This document shows, one piece after another, positions 5,028 to 23,081 of a stretch of 24,557 bases of DNA (positions are counted from its first letter, which is position 1; the number at the start of each line of letters is the position of its first letter). A model generated the notes under the pieces. That model saw only the letters and a program-made list of their open reading frames with translations. It ran no database searches and had not been told where the DNA came from. The translations under genes and the position numbers were made by a program. The DNA comes from a virus: the IMG/VR virus record IMGVR_UViG_3300042361_000037, positions 1 to 24,557 of that record, one strand, 5' to 3'.

Positions 5028-5257
5028 GAGTTTTTCTCCGTTTTCTTATTTATAGATGCGAATTTCTCAGATGCAGTGAATCCAAGACCAGCCATTGTCA
5101 AATATATCATACCCTCAAACATGTATGATTCCACTTTGTAGTCCCAAAATAGATTAGCAATGAATGCTGTACCACATAACACAAATGCTAGAAAAGTCAC
5201 AACTCTCTTACTACTAAGAGAATTGTTATGTGAGTCGTCTAGCATCCCGTTTAGCAT
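5024..5257 (-). CDS. Small two-segment membrane protein, holin candidate (77 aa)
   Basis: Two hydrophobic segments are visible: residues about 18-38 (RVVTFLAFVLCGTAFIANLF) and about 46-62 (MFEGMIYLTMAGLGFTA), with a short charged tail. Size and topology fit a class II holin, and the gene sits four genes after the endolysin and spanins. The sequence alone does not prove holin function; it could be another accessory membrane protein. The start at 5257 overlaps the previous stop (TAATG) and has GGAG seven bases upstream; a second ATG at 5245 is possible. Confidence 0.65.
   Translation of the reverse strand: MLNGMLDDSHNNSLSSKRVVTFLAFVLCGTAFIANLFWDYKVESYMFEGMIYLTMAGLGFTASEKFASINKKTEKNS
5047..5054 (-). 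promoter_or_regulatory. T4-type late promoter TATAAATA
   Basis: An exact TATAAATA box on the minus strand, the minus-10 element read by sigma factor gp55 in T4-like phages. It lies 20 bases before the ATG at 5027, so the transcript would start just ahead of the ribosome binding region of the small secreted protein. Confidence 0.6.
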
Positions 5258-9033: not shown

Positions 9034-9041
9034 TATTTATG
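9034..9041 (-). promoter_or_regulatory. Late promoter-like box CATAAATA
   Basis: CATAAATA on the minus strand, one mismatch from the T4 late consensus, 23 bases before the ATG at 9010. As at 23074-23081, the stop codon of the upstream gene (TAA, 9039-9037) lies inside the box. Confidence 0.45.
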
Positions 9042-10704
9042 TTTTGATGATCTGTGATGATAGCTCAGGTTCAGCTTGGAATGTATCAGCTTTTTCTTTG
9101 CTAGATGACTTAGAATTCTTAGCCAAATCTTTTACGATGCCAGCAGTCTTAGACAGTGAACGTTTCGCAGGTGTGCTTGTTTTCTCAAAAGAATCTTCCG
9201 GCTCTTGCTCTTCTTTTAGACCTGCTTGTTTACGTGCAGCAGTCTTTGCGAGGTGCTTAACTCTAGACATTGCTGTGTGTTTTGCGCCAGATTTGTCTGT
9301 TGTCACTTTTGTTGTATTTTTGGTATAAGGACCATCAAATGGAACCTCATAACGCTCTTTACCCAAGTCTGTTGCAGTTTGTTCAGCAGTAATGATAGGT
9401 GTAGGCTTCGCAGGCTTCTTAGCTGGTCCGGATGTGAAACGACCAGCGTCCGGATTCTCGTTGGAGTTGCTAGTTTGACCAACTTCTTCCGCCACAACAC
9501 TCTCAGCTTTGTACTTCTTAAACATATCAGTACCTTTTCTTGGTGCAAGACCTTGTGTGCGATATGCAGCAGCAGAAACAGCAGCGTATCGTTTTGTCTT
9601 CTTACTCGCCTCAGCGTTTGTGCCGGTGCCAGGCAATTCTCTTGCGCTGTCCATTGCTTTATTGACATAGGAGCCAAGAGTTTTCTTTGACAACTCATCA
9701 ATCTGCTCAACTTCTTCCTTCATCCCTGTACGGCGAGACTCACCTTCAATGTATGAGTGTAGTGATTCTACATCACTTTGAACTTTAGATAGTTTGTTCT
9801 GATACCACTCTTCAATTTCACCACCCATCTCAATGAACTCAAGAATTTCTTCAGCGGCATACTTGATGAAGTGTAGTTGCGTTTGGGCCATCTCAGTTTT
9901 TTCGGTGGTATCCGATTCAGCTTGCTCATTGATTTCAGCTTGTTTCAGAATACCTTTGACCAATGGTGCCTTTAATTGACGATGACGTGGAACTGGAATG
10001 TGGTGCTTTGCTTCTGGATGTGTGTATACATCGTGGCTACCTGATGTGCGCGAAAGTTTCCAACCACGCTTCTTCAGATGTTGATGCACAGCACGGGTAT
10101 CCATGTTAGCACCAGGCATTTCATCTAGTTGCTCAACATCAACAGACTCATCCCACTGCTTACCACGTGCCGCATTTCTAGCCGCAGATTTTGCACCATA
10201 GTTTTGTTGCAGTCTCTCAGCATCATACTTATGTACTGTAGCGCCTTTGACTTTCTTTGCAACGTTCTCGGCATGAGACTTGGTATCAAATGTTTTCCAG
10301 TGACGACCATTGACATGTACTGAGTGATAGTCTTTGGCGTCAGCTTCGGCCAGTTCAACCTCTTCATTAGTCTGTGAGTTTTTCAAATCCTTCTCGGATG
10401 GTGCACCCTCTGAGCCAGGCTTACGCATACGTTCACCTGAACCTTTTTTGATTCTTTCACGCTTGGCATGAATGTTGTCCCACAGACCAGCTTCTTCAAT
10501 GGTTTCTTCTTCTTTGATGGATTTGCCAGCAGATTTATCACCATAAGTTGCCTGACGTTTTTTAGCAAGGTCGAGCTTATCTTTGACAGCTTTTCCCAAC
10601 TTCGGATCAGCCTTCAGCATCCATCCTGTTCCAAGAGACTTTTTACCCTCTTCCAAAATGTCCTCACCGCGGACAAGACTTGCAATCTGCTTGAAACTTC
10701 TCAT
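9037..10704 (-). CDS. Capsid cargo polyprotein candidate with HicA-like RNase domain (555 aa)
   Basis: The N-terminus MRSFKQIASL resembles a capsid targeting sequence, and LEE at 17-19 is a possible prohead protease site. Segments in order: basic linker (20-115); HSVHVNGRHWKTFDTKSHA domain (127-165); LDE site at 193-195; HicA-like domain (200-256) with GSH (222-224) and a later VPRH; INE site at 258-260; helical EEW-containing segment (275-320); one DELSKKTLGSYVNKA module (336-350) as in the neighbouring repeat protein; low-complexity lysine/serine/alanine tail. The start at 10704 is chosen because it has GGGAG upstream and lies one base after the previous stop; the frame from 10788 would overlap that gene. 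I infer a head-packaged, protease-processed effector precursor; a scaffold-type role is the alternative. Confidence 0.8.
   Translation of the reverse strand: MRSFKQIASLVRGEDILEEGKKSLGTGWMLKADPKLGKAVKDKLDLAKKRQATYGDKSAGKSIKEEETIEEAGLWDNIHAKRERIKKGSGERMRKPGSEGAPSEKDLKNSQTNEEVELAEADAKDYHSVHVNGRHWKTFDTKSHAENVAKKVKGATVHKYDAERLQQNYGAKSAARNAARGKQWDESVDVEQLDEMPGANMDTRAVHQHLKKRGWKLSRTSGSHDVYTHPEAKHHIPVPRHRQLKAPLVKGILKQAEINEQAESDTTEKTEMAQTQLHFIKYAAEEILEFIEMGGEIEEWYQNKLSKVQSDVESLHSYIEGESRRTGMKEEVEQIDELSKKTLGSYVNKAMDSARELPGTGTNAEASKKTKRYAAVSAAAYRTQGLAPRKGTDMFKKYKAESVVAEEVGQTSNSNENPDAGRFTSGPAKKPAKPTPIITAEQTATDLGKERYEVPFDGPYTKNTTKVTTDKSGAKHTAMSRVKHLAKTAARKQAGLKEEQEPEDSFEKTSTPAKRSLSKTAGIVKDLAKNSKSSSKEKADTFQAEPELSSQIIKT
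9937..10107 (-). other. HicA-like RNase domain inside the polyprotein
   Basis: Residues 200-256 read as a compact HicA (YcfA) mRNA-interferase fold: a first helix DTRAVHQHLKKRGW, the strand-turn TSGSHDVYTHP with the catalytic-type histidine, the strand HHIPVPRH and the last helix PLVKGILKQAEI. Size, order and the G-S-H motif all fit. No HicB-like antitoxin is encoded beside it. Confidence 0.8.
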
Positions 10705-10705
10705 A

Positions 10706-12499
10706 TTACTCTCCCTTGGCTTGCTTGGTGGCCGTAGCGTACATAACAGACTTAGCATCTTTGCCATAACGCTCTTTGAAGCCAGCAATGTTCTTCTTCA
10801 TGCCTTTGACATTCTTTTCCAATGCAGCCTTTTCAGCGGTGGTCAATGAACGCTCTTCAATTTGCTCAACTTCTTCCTTAGCTAAACGATCAACAGCTTT
10901 GCCCATGTTTTCGCGGCGCTTCCAAGACTTAGCAAAAGTTTTATCTGCTTTCTCCATGCTCTTTCTAGCATCATTGTAGCGTGAATCTTTACGTGCAGCT
11001 TCTGAATCATTAGCATGTTGACGAGTCAATGCGCCCTTGTGTGCAACATCATGAGATGCTTTCTTGACATAGGATGCTAGTGTAGACTTCTTTAGTTCAT
11101 CTAGTTGTTCAAATTCTTCAGTTTGCATGAAGTTTTCAACATCTTCAACAGTAAATTCAAGTTCATCTAAGTTTTCATATTCTTCTCTAGTCAAACGTTT
11201 AACAGCTTTTTTAACGCCGCGGTCTCGCTTTTTAATCACACGCTGATCTGCTTTCATTTCGCGGGCGTTACGAACCTGATCAGCTTTTTTTTCAGGTTGG
11301 GCACCATACGCCACGCTTGCAATATTATGCTCTCTATCTGCTTGACTTCTTACAGCTTTATTGATGTATGAACCGAGTGTCTTCTTACTTAACTCATCAA
11401 TTTGTTCAACTTCTTCTTTAGTCAAACGATCTACCGCTCTTTGTATACCAGTAGTTGAATTTTTAAGTCTACGGAAGTTTCCTGGCGTCCTACGATTTCG
11501 TTCCAGTGTAGTAAGATGATGACCTACCTCGTGTGCGGCATACCTCACCCTGCCTTGGGCTTTATTGATATATTTACCAAGAGTCTTCTTGCTCAGTTCA
11601 TCTAGTTGTTCAAATTCTTCAGTTTGCATGAAGTTTTCAACATCTTCAACAGTAAATTCAAGTTCATCTAAGTTTTCATATTCTTCTCTAGTCAAACGTT
11701 TAACAGCGCGATCAACGCCGCGATTTCGCTTTTTAATCACACGTTCATCTTTTTTTATTTCGCGGGCTTGCTGTTTCACATCAGCTTTTTTTTCAGGTTG
11801 GTCGCCAAAGTGCAGACGTCCAATATTATAATCTTTATTTGCTACACTGCTTACAGCTTTATTGATGTATGAACCGAGTGTCTTCTTACTTAACTCATCA
11901 ATTTGTTCAACTTCTTCTTTAGTCAAACGATCTACCGCTCTTTGTATACCAGTAGTTGAATTTTTAACTTTACGGACATGTTGTGGGGACGGTTTAAGTT
12001 TAGAAACATCACGTCCTATCATGTATGATCTATTTCTCACATTATCTCGGGCAGCCTTAATATATTTACCAAGAGTCTTCTTGCTCAGTTCATCTAGTTG
12101 TTCAACAGATTCTTGCTTGACAGCTTGCACAGCAGGCTTTGCAACTTCAGCTTTGCTCTTGCCAATGGACTTGTCTTGTGCTATCTTGATCTCTTTGTTG
12201 AACTCTTCTTGAGATGCTTCTTCTTTTGTATACTTCTTAGTGTACACAGTGCCTGTGGAGATTTTCTTAGCATCGTGGCCAGTCTTCTCACCTTTTTCAG
12301 CAGTTTGGCGTGGAGTATTCTTCCAGTCAAATGGGCTAGCAGGCTTCTTGGCTTCCTCTTTGCGCAACAACTTGAAGTCGTGTGCATCAACTTTGCCGTT
12401 TTTGTTTTTATCGATCTTGTGTTGATCGCCTTTCAGTGCTTCGTCCACAACAGCTTTCACTGCTTCGGCCACTGATTTTAGAATTTTATCGTTGAACAT
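10706..12499 (-). CDS. Repeat protein with EF-hand and DELSKKTLG modules (597 aa)
   Basis: Residues 30-41 (DKNKNGKVDAHD) form a canonical calcium-binding EF-hand loop. From about residue 130 the protein consists of lysine- and glutamate-rich helical modules that each open with [LI]-D-E-L-x-K-x-T-L-[GA]-x-Y, at 135, 200, 299, 367 and 466, and close with basic RAV(D/K)RLT segments. Modules 2 and 4 are 167 residues apart. Each [LI]-D-E is also a possible prohead protease site. No membrane segment. Similar DELSKKTLG repeats occur in T4-like marine phage proteins of unknown function. Possible roles are prohead scaffold or core, DNA-binding internal protein, or precursor of many small peptides. AAGGAA upstream supports the ATG at 12499. 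Confidence 0.82.
   Translation of the reverse strand: MFNDKILKSVAEAVKAVVDEALKGDQHKIDKNKNGKVDAHDFKLLRKEEAKKPASPFDWKNTPRQTAEKGEKTGHDAKKISTGTVYTKKYTKEEASQEEFNKEIKIAQDKSIGKSKAEVAKPAVQAVKQESVEQLDELSKKTLGKYIKAARDNVRNRSYMIGRDVSKLKPSPQHVRKVKNSTTGIQRAVDRLTKEEVEQIDELSKKTLGSYINKAVSSVANKDYNIGRLHFGDQPEKKADVKQQAREIKKDERVIKKRNRGVDRAVKRLTREEYENLDELEFTVEDVENFMQTEEFEQLDELSKKTLGKYINKAQGRVRYAAHEVGHHLTTLERNRRTPGNFRRLKNSTTGIQRAVDRLTKEEVEQIDELSKKTLGSYINKAVRSQADREHNIASVAYGAQPEKKADQVRNAREMKADQRVIKKRDRGVKKAVKRLTREEYENLDELEFTVEDVENFMQTEEFEQLDELKKSTLASYVKKASHDVAHKGALTRQHANDSEAARKDSRYNDARKSMEKADKTFAKSWKRRENMGKAVDRLAKEEVEQIEERSLTTAEKAALEKNVKGMKKNIAGFKERYGKDAKSVMYATATKQAKGE
11094..11206. repeat. 113-bp direct repeat A, copy 1
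   Basis: Identical by eye to 11595-11707, 501 bases away. It encodes the REEYENLDELEFTVEDVENF segment and the start of the following module, in the same frame in both copies. Confidence 0.9.
11349..11466. repeat. 118-bp direct repeat B, copy 1
   Basis: Identical by eye to 11850-11967, again 501 bases away. It encodes KNSTTGIQRAVDRLTKEE and the EQIDELSKKTLGSYINKA module opening. Confidence 0.9.
11595..11707. repeat. 113-bp direct repeat A, copy 2
   Basis: Second copy of repeat A. Between the A and B blocks the two 501-bp units are clearly diverged, so identical and diverged stretches alternate. Confidence 0.9.
11850..11967. repeat. 118-bp direct repeat B, copy 2
   Basis: Second copy of repeat B; see 11349-11466. 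Confidence 0.9.
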
Positions 12500-14178: not shown

Positions 14179-14556
14179 TTAGCAATTCCATTTTCTTAGT
14201 GCGAGAGCTTTACGGGACGGCTCTCCGTTAGGTTTCTTCATCGGACCTTCCACTCCACCCATTCTAGCACAGAATGACTTGCGACGGTTAGCAGCTTTAC
14301 TGCCCGGTGTCAATTTTGATGGTGGTGTTGTAACCGGTGCTTTTAGATTGCCGCCATCTTTTCTGTTGTAGTAGTCACGACCCTTTTGAGTTAGACCACC
14401 AGTAGAGCTTTTTAGTCCTTTAGCATCAACTGCGGCTTCCACTACAGTTTCTTCTTTCATACAAGAATCGGGTGAGTATGCTTTCTTACCTGGAACAGGT
14501 TTATAGCCTTTCCAGCAGCGCCCAGCTTCAGTGACAAAATCTTTATAGTTTTTCAT
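14179..14556 (-). CDS. Capsid-targeted small basic protein with four cysteines (DUF6321-like), 125 aa
   Basis: The N-terminus MKNYKDFVTEAG is a capsid-targeting-like sequence with V-T-E before A. Then come CWKGYKPVPGKKAYSPDSC (cysteines 14 and 32) and a strongly conserved-looking end: LTQKGRDYYNRKDGG, SFCARMGGVEGPMKKPNGEP and ALALRKWNC (cysteines 96 and 125). This C-terminal half matches my memory of the DUF6321 family found in T4-like phages. The four cysteines could bind zinc. It is strongly basic and could bind packaged DNA or RNA. The start overlaps the polyprotein stop as ATGA. Confidence 0.82.
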   Translation of the reverse strand: MKNYKDFVTEAGRCWKGYKPVPGKKAYSPDSCMKEETVVEAAVDAKGLKSSTGGLTQKGRDYYNRKDGGNLKAPVTTPPSKLTPGSKAANRRKSFCARMGGVEGPMKKPNGEPSRKALALRKWNC

Positions 14557-17084
14557 AGGTAATTCTTTCCTCTGAACGTGCTAAGTGATATGCCATGTTT
14601 AGCCAGTTCATCTTGTTTTTGTGCACCAATTGACGCTGTGGTTGAATCCCCACCCATTTCAGCAACAGGTTTCTTTTTCAGAGGATTCACTTTGCCATTC
14701 TTGTCATTGATTTCGCCCATGTCACGCCCAATGCCTTCGCCACCAGCAGCCATGGACATGCCAGTTTCTATGCCTTTGTCGATGGCTTCTTTGAACGTGT
14801 TTTTGGCTTGCGAGAGGGTGAGCTTGCCTTTAAAGCGGCTGGCTTCGTGGATGTTTTTGGTGCTGGCTTCGGCACTGGCACTGGCACTTGTTCCTGCACT
14901 GTTACCACTGGAACTTCCACTTCCACTTTCGGTAATGGCTCTGGTACTACTACGACCGGAACTTCCACTTTCGGCAATGGTTGTGGCTCCGGTGCTGACT
15001 CCGGCACTACGGCTGGTGCTTCCACTTTCGGCAATGGTTGTGGCTCCGGTTCCACTGGCGGTTTGCTCTTCACAAAGAAACTTTTCACGAATTTCAACAT
15101 TTACATTCTCCTTTAATTTAACTATGTAACCTTTGTCTGTCTTAACGACTTCACCACCTTTGGTGTGTGCGTCTTTAGCAGCATTGTTTCGTATTGCATA
15201 TACTTTAGGCTTGTTGCCTGATGCAATATATGTAGCTCCATCTTTTACGGCAGTTCTTTCACCACTGATACTTTCGGAGACAAACATGGATTTTCCGAGC
15301 GTCAATAGATTGTATGCACCAGAATCAGACATTTCTGTGTGGTCCACGTGCTCCTCAACTTCCTGCTCTTCCACTTCTGCATCTCCATTGCCAGTCAGCA
15401 TCTTCATTGCTTTTTGTAGCTCTTCTGGGGTATCAGCTTTGAAAGTAACTGAAACGGCCTCAAAAAGATTCTGAAAATCTTCGTTGATAGACTCTTTGAC
15501 TGGTTTCTTGGGCACAGGCTTTTGGCTACTAGCTCCACTCATAGGAACTTCAGCAGTTTTCTTAATCATCTTTTGCTGTTCAGCGTGTGTTGGATCCTGC
15601 ACCAAAGTTCCGTGAACTGTGTGATGTGTGACTTTACCATTCTTACCATATCGGCCATAGCCATAGTATTGTAGCCCAAGGCGTCTAGCTTCATCAGTTG
15701 CTTTGTTTTCGCCCTCAGCGGAGTGTGGAATAGACAGTTCCGTGCCTTTCTTAGGAACAGGCAAGGTGTCTTTCTTCTGTAGTTCACCAGCAACCCAAGC
15801 CTTAGCTTGCTCATTCTTAGGTGGTGCTTGAACAAACTTTTGGACAGTCTTGAAGATGTTGTTCATCTCTTCTTTCTTGGCTTTGACCACTTCTGGTGCT
15901 GCGGTGCGCAAGTCTTCAGAGTTATCAAATTCAATATAGCTGTTGCCAAACAACTTAGCCATCTCTGGGCGTGAATTGTTTACTGCGTCCCACTTTTCTT
16001 TACGAATATTCTCAGGAACTGTACGACCACCTCTTTGCCCACGCTCAACGTTTCTCTGTGCAGAAATTTCATCGCGTGTAACAACGGCAACCATAGAAGT
16101 TTCATAGCCAATTTCTTCTAAGTTTTTCTTTATCTTGGCATACTTTGCGGGATCATCGCCTGTGCCATTGATAATGATGCCGTTGCGACCCAACAGCGCC
16201 AGCTTCTGCTTCAACTCTGTCATGTCTTTTGCTTTACCGCGAACAAGTGTCCGTGCATCAGCTTCAGTCTCTGGCATTTTCTTGTCCAGATTATTCTTGT
16301 CCATCAGAAACTCAAGTGCTTTGTCTGAGTTGATTTCAATCAAGCCATGACCAGCAAGTGTGTTATCCAACACATAGTCTTTACCTGAGCCTGGACCGCC
16401 CGATAGAAACACAGCCTTGAAGATGCCTTTATCGTGGACACCCTCAGATAGGATCATCTGAATTTGTGATCGGAAATCTTCTTTGACTTGCATTCCCTTG
16501 CGCACATCATTATACAATTCTTTAGCGTGTTCTGGCGCTACGTGACTTGGAATGCCTTTTTTGAATTCTTTGAAGTTGCCTTTTGATGCATGGCTACGCA
16601 TCTTGGATGCAGACATACCAGATACACCCTCAGCATCAGGATCACGCTCACCAGCGGAGTGTACGTGAATACCACGAAACTTGAAGTATCCATGCGTACC
16701 TTTTACGCCATTGTATTTGTGTAAAATCTTCTCATACTCACCAGTTCTATCGGATCCTGCAACCATGTGCAAATGTGTAGCGCCAGCTTTGTGGAGTTTT
16801 GATGCTTGAGCCAGAAAGTTTGGATGTTCTTTACTGGAGGTTGTGATATTCGTGTCAGGAAAATATCGTTGTGCGTGTTTGACTTTTTGCTCACCTGAGA
16901 GTGGATTCTTCTCAGCGTCCTGTGAATGCGATAGAACAACGTGGTGTGTTCCCTTCACAGATTTAGCAACATCTTTGACTTTATCAACCAGTTTTGCATG
17001 ACCGGTTGTTGGTGGATTCATGCGTCCGAACGCAAGGACCGCATGTTTTTCTGTTGTTTCTTCTAAATATTGTCTGAACTTCAT
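14553..17084 (-). CDS. Capsid cargo polyprotein candidate: nucleotidyltransferase plus zeta-like kinase (843 aa)
   Basis: Segments in order: targeting-like MKFRQYLEET (1-10); nucleotidyltransferase of the NMN-adenylyltransferase type with GRMNPPTTGH (20-29) and SGMSASKMR (155-163); LSE site (212-214) before G; P-loop kinase with GGPGSGK (229-235), NSDK (252-255), NGIIINGTGDD and RNVERGQRGGR (344-354), resembling zeta toxin; sites INE (533-535) and LFE (540-542); a small alpha/beta segment (545-665); a serine/glycine/threonine stretch with IAE, IAE and ITE each before S (684-719); IHE before A (745-747); a glycine-rich end. GGAG precedes the ATG at 17084. The serine-rich stretch is also read in another frame (see 14768-15100). 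I infer a head-packaged precursor cut by the prohead protease; a cytoplasmic multidomain enzyme is the alternative. Confidence 0.82.
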   Translation of the reverse strand: MKFRQYLEETTEKHAVLAFGRMNPPTTGHAKLVDKVKDVAKSVKGTHHVVLSHSQDAEKNPLSGEQKVKHAQRYFPDTNITTSSKEHPNFLAQASKLHKAGATHLHMVAGSDRTGEYEKILHKYNGVKGTHGYFKFRGIHVHSAGERDPDAEGVSGMSASKMRSHASKGNFKEFKKGIPSHVAPEHAKELYNDVRKGMQVKEDFRSQIQMILSEGVHDKGIFKAVFLSGGPGSGKDYVLDNTLAGHGLIEINSDKALEFLMDKNNLDKKMPETEADARTLVRGKAKDMTELKQKLALLGRNGIIINGTGDDPAKYAKIKKNLEEIGYETSMVAVVTRDEISAQRNVERGQRGGRTVPENIRKEKWDAVNNSRPEMAKLFGNSYIEFDNSEDLRTAAPEVVKAKKEEMNNIFKTVQKFVQAPPKNEQAKAWVAGELQKKDTLPVPKKGTELSIPHSAEGENKATDEARRLGLQYYGYGRYGKNGKVTHHTVHGTLVQDPTHAEQQKMIKKTAEVPMSGASSQKPVPKKPVKESINEDFQNLFEAVSVTFKADTPEELQKAMKMLTGNGDAEVEEQEVEEHVDHTEMSDSGAYNLLTLGKSMFVSESISGERTAVKDGATYIASGNKPKVYAIRNNAAKDAHTKGGEVVKTDKGYIVKLKENVNVEIREKFLCEEQTASGTGATTIAESGSTSRSAGVSTGATTIAESGSSGRSSTRAITESGSGSSSGNSAGTSASASAEASTKNIHEASRFKGKLTLSQAKNTFKEAIDKGIETGMSMAAGGEGIGRDMGEINDKNGKVNPLKKKPVAEMGGDSTTASIGAQKQDELAKHGISLSTFRGKNYL
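14768..15100 (-). CDS. Embedded overlapping gene candidate: proline-rich, basic-tailed protein (110 aa)
   Basis: This frame lies wholly inside the polyprotein gene in another frame of the same strand. It begins MLKFVKSFFVKSKPP, continues with three PEPQPLPKVE-type repeats (third shortened to PEPLPKVE), valine/proline dipeptides, and ends in a lysine-, serine- and proline-rich basic tail (SPSRKPKTRSKKPSTKA). AAAGGAG stands seven bases before its ATG, a better ribosome binding site than most genes here have. The four base substitutions between repeats 2 and 3 keep this protein unchanged but alter the polyprotein. The extended proline region and basic tail recall TonB-like spacers and DNA-binding tails; no function can be assigned. 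Confidence 0.6.
   Translation of the reverse strand: MLKFVKSFFVKSKPPVEPEPQPLPKVEAPAVVPESAPEPQPLPKVEVPVVVVPEPLPKVEVEVPVVTVQEQVPVPVPKPAPKTSTKPAALKASSPSRKPKTRSKKPSTKA
14962..15050. repeat. Tandem repeat region with two identical 32-bp units
   Basis: The 32 bases at 15019-15050 and 14962-14993 are identical and 57 bases (19 codons) apart; a shortened, diverged third unit follows at about 14910-14945. The repeats encode PEPQPLPKVE in one frame and TGATTIAESG in the other. Confidence 0.85.
15108..15114 (-). promoter_or_regulatory. Strong ribosome binding site AAAGGAG inside the polyprotein gene
   Basis: AAAGGAG on the minus strand with seven bases to the ATG at 15100. Its presence in the middle of a long gene supports translation of the embedded frame. 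Confidence 0.6.
15885..16421 (-). other. Zeta-toxin-like P-loop kinase domain
   Basis: Residues 222-400 of the polyprotein: AVFLSGGPGSGKDYVL (Walker A), NSDK after the second strand, NGIIINGTGDD as the third strand, and an arginine-rich lid ERGQRGGRTVPENI, where zeta-type kinases place their substrate and phosphate contacts. Other P-loop kinases (gluconate or polynucleotide kinase type) share parts of this pattern. Confidence 0.65.
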
Positions 17085-21072: not shown

Positions 21073-22304
21073 TATTTGTCCCACGCTTTCTGTGCGGTGA
21101 AGTTTGCATGACTGAATTCAAGTCTATCAACCAACTTGACGGCATTACCTTTTAGTCGATCAACAGCAACAAAGCCTTCTGGATTCGTGACCTTAAATCC
21201 ATCATCTGTACGTAAGAATGCACCAGTAACTTGACGCATCTGTTGTAACTTTTTGATAATGATATTCTTGGAATCAACGATCATATTCATGATATCAAAA
21301 ATCTTAACAAGCTCGGCAAAGTTGCTTCGATAGAATCGCATGATTTCATTCTTTTCAGCTTGACGCTTGAGTTTAGTGTCTTCTCTTTTAGCGGCAATAA
21401 TCTCTTTGTTCAGCTTGTCTTCAATCCATTTCAACAGTCCTTTCGCATGTTCCGTTGTATCTTTGATGTGTTCACCGGAACGAACTTTCGTGTTGTTGTA
21501 TGTTTTGATCTGAACATTGAATATCTCAGAGGTAGCAATACGATTCAGGGTCATGCTACTGGTTCTTTGGAACAGGGATCCTGCTTGAGATAAAATAGCT
21601 GTGATTTCTTTAGTCTCTTTTTCGGTAAATGTGACTGTACCAGATGCGTCAACGAAATATGCATCACGGAACCAAACATCCTTAGTTGCTTTCATTCTAC
21701 CAATATCGATGTTGAATGAAGACTTCAAATCTGCGATTGTCTTTCCTGTGTATGCCGTATGAAACACAATACCCATTTGTGCTGTCAACATGGACTTAGC
21801 TAGTGCAGAATCTTCAGGAACCGCATACACGATTGTGTTTGGTTGAAATGTCACATACTTGACACCATCAATCGTTGCTTTCTTGATATCACCTTTAGCA
21901 AACATCATGTCGCCTTGCAGAATGCCATCGATACCAATCTTAGGCAAGTATGCTAGTGCAACCTTCAGTTTCTTATTCAGGCCTTCACCTGGATGATTTC
22001 TGTCAATATCTTCATCGGTGTAGTTCAGCTTTGCATCTTTGTTGAAGATGCCTTTTGTGGCTACAAAGAACTTACCATTCTCTGGATTAGTGCCAGCAAA
22101 TACAGCAGGTGCACCGTCCCATTTTGTGGTAATGTTTACCTTGCCGTCTGAATTGCCAGCAAGCATGTCTCTGAGTGATCGCAAAAAGTTGATTGCATCT
22201 CTCGTACCAGCTACACCGCGATTTAGAACTTCTTCCTCGATATGCTCTAGGTGAACGTTCTTGCCTTCTTTTGAGGACTCTGTTAGGAATTCTTTGAATT
22301 TCAT
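21072..22304 (-). CDS. Capsid-targeted KxDG nucleotidyltransferase-like protein (410 aa)
   Basis: The first ten residues MKFKEFLTES are the clearest capsid-targeting-like sequence here, with L-T-E before S. Residues 59-70 (TTKWDGAPAVFA) contain K-W-D-G, the lysine motif used for covalent AMP or GMP attachment by DNA/RNA ligases and capping enzymes. GIDGILQGDMMF and GIVFHT could be motifs III/IIIa and IV. Similar proteins of this length occur in T4-like marine phages without known function (I recall DUF6267, unverified). RNA ligase, DNA ligase or a non-catalytic relative are all possible. The ATG at 22304 shares a base with the previous stop; a GTG at 22316 is the alternative. Confidence 0.75.
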   Translation of the reverse strand: MKFKEFLTESSKEGKNVHLEHIEEEVLNRGVAGTRDAINFLRSLRDMLAGNSDGKVNITTKWDGAPAVFAGTNPENGKFFVATKGIFNKDAKLNYTDEDIDRNHPGEGLNKKLKVALAYLPKIGIDGILQGDMMFAKGDIKKATIDGVKYVTFQPNTIVYAVPEDSALAKSMLTAQMGIVFHTAYTGKTIADLKSSFNIDIGRMKATKDVWFRDAYFVDASGTVTFTEKETKEITAILSQAGSLFQRTSSMTLNRIATSEIFNVQIKTYNNTKVRSGEHIKDTTEHAKGLLKWIEDKLNKEIIAAKREDTKLKRQAEKNEIMRFYRSNFAELVKIFDIMNMIVDSKNIIIKKLQQMRQVTGAFLRTDDGFKVTNPEGFVAVDRLKGNAVKLVDRLEFSHANFTAQKAWDK

Positions 22305-23063: not shown

Positions 23064-23073
23064 ATTTATTGGA

Positions 23074-23081
23074 TATTTATA
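23074..23081 (-). promoter_or_regulatory. T4-type late promoter TATAAATA
   Basis: Exact TATAAATA on the minus strand, 20 bases before the start at 23053. It contains the TAA stop codon of the helicase gene (23079-23077). It marks the change from early replication genes to the late block. Confidence 0.65.

Follow-up and report, generated by a model that had tools for sequence, protein, structure and literature searches.

A small protein-coding gene lies wholly inside a larger gene of a T4-like phage, on the same strand and in its +1 frame, and a comparison of 79 distinct relatives indicates that this small frame is almost certainly a selected gene with a start and a stop of its own. The gene was recognized in a viral stretch of 24,557 nucleotides (IMG/VR record IMGVR_UViG_3300042361_000037, hereafter the window), whose features are collected in Table 1. 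A preliminary description of this DNA had placed a 110-codon frame, headed by AAAGGAG seven bases ahead of its ATG, inside a polyprotein gene, and both elements are indeed present, the frame being +1 relative to an 843-aa ORF. It had also called attention to four differences between the second and third repeats of the overlap (CCG/CCA, TTG/TTA, CCG/CCA and GTC/GTG), which we likewise find to be silent in the small frame (4/4) and to exchange G/R, A/T, G/S and R/G in the host frame. In the window alone, when the host protein was held fixed and synonymous codons were drawn at random, 7% of trials gave a +1 ORF of this length or longer; a single open frame is thus unremarkable, and the case for the embedded gene rests on its relatives.

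Table 1. Coordinates of the embedded gene, its parts and its host gene in the window.
Feature	Position	Strand	Remarks
Embedded gene	14768..15100	-	110 codons from ATG, then TAG stop; in +1 frame of host gene
Shine-Dalgarno (SD) AAAGGAG	15108..15114	-	7 nt upstream of embedded ATG
Host codon AAT and next G, forming embedded ATG	15098..15101	-	first base varies among relatives
N-terminus of embedded protein, MLKFVKSFFVKSKP	15059..15100	-	short amphipathic, basic, helix-like segment
Pro/Val/Glu-rich middle with (PL)PKVE repeats	14906..15058	-	host frame of the same DNA reads (T)IAESGS
Basic C-terminal tail of embedded protein	14771..14860	-	last 30 residues with net charge +10
Host gene	14553..17084	-	843 aa; contains the whole embedded gene

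Relatives were collected from the viral contigs in IMG/VR by scanning for the C-terminus of the host protein, and the removal of duplicates left 79 distinct complete sequences, which fall into 25 groups at 70% host-protein identity. A +1 ORF of 59-110 aa is found at this spot in 79/79 of them, its start never more than a few codons away from the host motif YVVKxKE, against a chance expectation of 6.8/79 obtained from synonymous-codon shuffles that preserve the host protein. The 79 sequences are related to one another and are not independent observations; the 25 diverged groups suffice by themselves, which makes chance untenable as an account of this retention. An SD-like motif precedes a start in 76 relatives, and stops or frameshifts in the small frame, which the preliminary description had proposed to look for, number zero among the relatives that retain the overlap. 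One further contig (L132) lacks the entire overlap segment and keeps the host frame intact (L132:6070-6130), and no copy of the embedded gene was detected elsewhere on its 13.6 kb, so that the overlap stretch is not indispensable everywhere. The lineage is that of a T4-like dsDNA phage, with contigs of up to 214 kb, and nine long contigs each hold one copy of the embedded gene per genome.

Both ends of the small frame persist while the host residues encoded around them change. The embedded ATG is constant in the relatives when the base ahead of it is A, G, C or T, the host codon plus its following base being AAT-G in 45 members, GAT-G in 12, CAT-G in 12, TAT-G in 7 and something else in 3. At the opposite end, the last codon of the host motif IDKG-[I/V] is ATA or GTA, which creates the TAG stop, in 45/45 members in which the small frame has not closed before that point; ATA accounts for 17% of the Ile codons in these genes, and 20/28 members whose small frame is already closed there use ATT or ATC. 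The conserved SD and ATG are most simply explained by independent initiation inside the host gene, and it is very probable from these patterns that ribosomes start on their own at the embedded signals.

Selection on the two frames was assessed in 30 independent pairs by our own OLGenie-style count for this frame relation, which is tree-free and not an exact OLGenie run, using the flanks of the same gene as a control that guards against composition effects. Changes at host codon positions 1/2/3 amount to 241/150/236 in the overlap and to 207/146/699 in the flanks (chi-square p 1.4e-29). The nested-frame omega is 0.375 (0.31-0.45) in the overlap, whereas the flanks give 0.927 (0.76-1.14) in that frame, in agreement with the initial proposal that the small frame is under selection. 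In the overlap, the host-silent rate is 0.45x that of the flanks, a decrease seen in all groups except three small ones, and the nested-silent rate is up 3.1x, an increase seen in all groups but one, itself almost without changes. The preliminary description had further regarded the serine-rich stretch of the polyprotein as a passenger of the small gene. This is correct insofar as constraint on the host frame is looser in the overlap (omega 0.369, 0.30-0.44) than in the flanks (0.132, 0.11-0.15), but the host frame is still under purifying selection there and shows an excess of L/I-x-E-[A/G/S] motifs (see below), so that the word goes too far.

The balance between the frames shifts along the overlap. 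Nested omega is 0.26 for the N-terminal 20 codons, 0.40 for the middle and 0.44 for the tail, and host omega over these segments is 0.52, 0.43 and 0.27, respectively; the small frame thus dominates at its own N-terminus, and the host frame gains toward the C-terminus of the small protein. The N-terminal segment of the overlap alignment is nearly gap-free, and within the clade to which the window belongs, changes in the first 26 codons number 26/7/0 at host positions 1/2/3, summed over pairs.

The embedded protein consists of three recurring parts, namely a start like M-L-K-F-I-K-x-L-F-x-K-K, a Pro/Val/Glu-rich middle and a basic tail that often takes the form KSPSxKSxxxKKK. The hydrophobic moment of the N-terminus is 0.60, against 0.40 in host-preserving shuffles (mean of 25 groups), and the middle, compared likewise, has a proline content of 0.18 versus 0.07 and is also more acidic. 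The tail charge is 8.2 versus 7.7 in the same comparison and, because the host frame imposes it, does not constitute independent evidence for nucleic-acid binding; the basic tail was consequently dropped as an argument for DNA binding. AlphaFold2 predicts an almost structureless protein with a helix at residues 6-9 only, at a low-confidence mean pLDDT of 67.6.

The host gene encodes, in this order, a cytidyltransferase-like domain, a P-loop kinase (Zeta_toxin/AAA_33), a small AAK[ED]AH domain, a linker that corresponds to the overlap, and a conserved C-terminus. In T4-like (Kyanoviridae) phages, the cytidyltransferase gene lies downstream of the replicative helicase, in surroundings that resemble these. 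The linker is predicted to be unstructured by a low-confidence structure model, and the N-terminus of the host protein is capsid-targeting-like. The tripeptide L/I-x-E is the motif of T4 gp21 (PMC9026906), and [L/I]xE stands directly before GVHDKG, between the first two domains, in 37/37 host proteins that hold VHDKG. Judging from its N-terminus and from the sites at its domain junctions, the host gene reads as that of a late, head-targeted, protease-processed polyprotein. Capsid-targeting-like N-termini (M-x-x-F/Y...[F/I/L/V]-x-E) occur in five ORFs of the window, starting at 22304, 21072, 17084, 14556 and 8450 (all on the minus strand), suggesting a cluster of head-packaged proteins.

Other observations concern the remainder of the window. 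Residues 234-286 of a 583-aa ORF at 9037-10788 (-) match a HicA toxin domain (PF07927, E 2e-12), which is an unexpected partner in this long, otherwise unassigned protein, and EQxDELSKKTLGxYxxKA repeats recur in two neighbouring ORFs at 9037-12499 (-). A mechanical ORF listing gives a second possible overlap inside the 583-aa ORF, a 135-codon frame with a TTG start at 9303-9710 (-). Exact copies of TATAAATA, the core of the T4-type late promoter, are located at 23074-23081 and 5047-5054 (-), the first just upstream of the ORF that starts at 23065; a scan of the window for late promoters of this type returned 14 near-matches versus 24 expected and was uninformative overall.

The overlap is also the site of a dual-coded repeat, since in the window the same DNA is read as IAESG in the host frame and as LPKVE in the small frame. 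Across 25 representatives, the host frame of the overlap contains L/I-x-E-[A/G/S], which matches the T4 prohead-protease consensus, 26 times versus 6 expected by shuffling, and the small frame contains P-[KR]-[VAIL]-E 13 times versus 1.1 expected. It could be imagined that selection acts on a single DNA repeat through both frames simultaneously, maintaining a prohead-protease-type site in the host product and a P-K-V-E docking repeat in the embedded one, and that the two products are functionally coupled, a proposal that we regard as a long shot. If true, the small protein could, for example, regulate the processing or packaging of the very polyprotein that carries its gene. The dual-coded repeats offer a clean system for studying how one DNA segment can serve two proteins.

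The explanation that we favor is that the loosely constrained, protease-site-rich linker of the host gene left room for the overlap, and that ribosomes would start at the embedded SD and ATG on the host-gene mRNA to produce a protein of 59-110 aa. The N-terminal amphipathic helix might attach this protein to the inner membrane. The acidic, proline-rich segment would serve as a spacer or for docking, and nucleic acid or another acidic partner may be contacted by the basic tail. The product would then be a disordered adaptor made late in infection and serving late takeover or head assembly. The explanation as a whole is rated at roughly 0.75, a figure that reflects both the overlapping gene and the adaptor function. 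The parts differ in strength: the assignment as a small disordered membrane-binding adaptor is tentative, falling short of even odds; association with the membrane, suggested by the residue pattern, has nearly an even chance; and contact with nucleic acid is rather doubtful.

The alternative that survives best, although it is improbable, holds that the small protein is packaged into the head as an internal protein and is ejected with the DNA; its N-terminal helix would be a capsid-targeting sequence, and its Lys-rich tail would bind the packaged DNA. This alternative draws on the capsid-targeting-like starts of the host gene and of other ORFs in the window, on the small size of T4 internal proteins and on the basic capsid-targeting-like proteins of related phages (PMC9026906, PMC3012670). 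However, 24/25 representative nested proteins contain no L/I-x-E-[A/G/S] site, the one in the remaining protein (L038) is placed mid-protein, and most nested N-termini are Lys-rich and devoid of the acidic residues found in host N-termini. Translation of the +1 frame exclusively by programmed frameshifting out of the host frame, yielding a host-fusion variant, is very unlikely. Phages do use frameshifting, but here an SD and an ATG are kept while the host residues at the start vary, and in the window a +1 stop directly precedes the embedded ATG, so that a shift site could hardly be accommodated ahead of the conserved start. Even less credit is given to a lysis factor with the layout of lambda Rz1, the embedded outer-membrane spanin, which shares the embedded +1 architecture and the richness in proline (PMC6139136); Rz1 is an outer-membrane lipoprotein, whereas Cys is absent from 74/79 members (present in 5/79), no signal-peptide-like hydrophobic stretch is seen in the embedded protein, and the host is a nucleotidyltransferase-kinase rather than an inner-membrane spanin. 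Finally, the reading that there is no second gene supposes that +1 stops seldom arise from the codons of a Ser/Gly/Thr/Ala-rich linker and that the open frame results from this. It can appeal to the frequency of a single such frame (7-9% per sequence) and to other long +1 ORFs in the host gene, but it is refuted on comparative grounds by the retention of the frame (79/79 versus 6.8 expected), by a nested omega of 0.38 versus 0.93 in the flanks and by start and stop positions that persist while host residues change.

A tblastn search with the embedded protein and three host C-termini found no match in 50,697 named phage records, profile search did not recover the embedded gene in HTVC008M, AG-345-O18, Melnitz-2 or S-CAM9, which are syntenic relatives of the host gene, and no relative was found in bacterial genomes. 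The embedded family has no match in PHROGs or the PDB, nor in Pfam, which was searched with the window protein only, and no paper on this gene pair was found in the literature. As the embedded family matches no known protein family, standard annotation would miss the small gene, and its absence from the libraries searched has kept its function and distribution invisible so far. Embedded spanin genes such as Rz1 are likewise often overlooked by gene callers (PMC6139136).

Three known systems invite comparison. Like Rz1 within Rz of lambda (PMC6139136), the embedded gene specifies a small proline-rich protein in the +1 frame of a larger phage gene on the same strand; unlike Rz1, its product has a basic tail and neither a lipobox Cys nor a signal sequence, its host is not an inner-membrane protein, and nothing in the data speaks for a role in lysis. 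The resemblance to the T4 internal proteins and their capsid-targeting system (PMC9026906) belongs to the host gene, with its targeting-like N-terminus and L/I-x-E sites, whereas the embedded protein does not carry an N-terminal processing site of that kind. Overprinted viral genes in general (PMC8227390) likewise give rise to a novel protein from an alternative frame of an existing gene, with no homologues found beyond their lineage. What differs here is that the gene is retained in 25 diverged groups of a T4-like dsDNA phage lineage with contigs of up to 214 kb. In genomes this large, pressure on genome size does not readily explain an overlap, and the comparison of relatives shows clearly that a fully embedded gene has been deeply conserved there.
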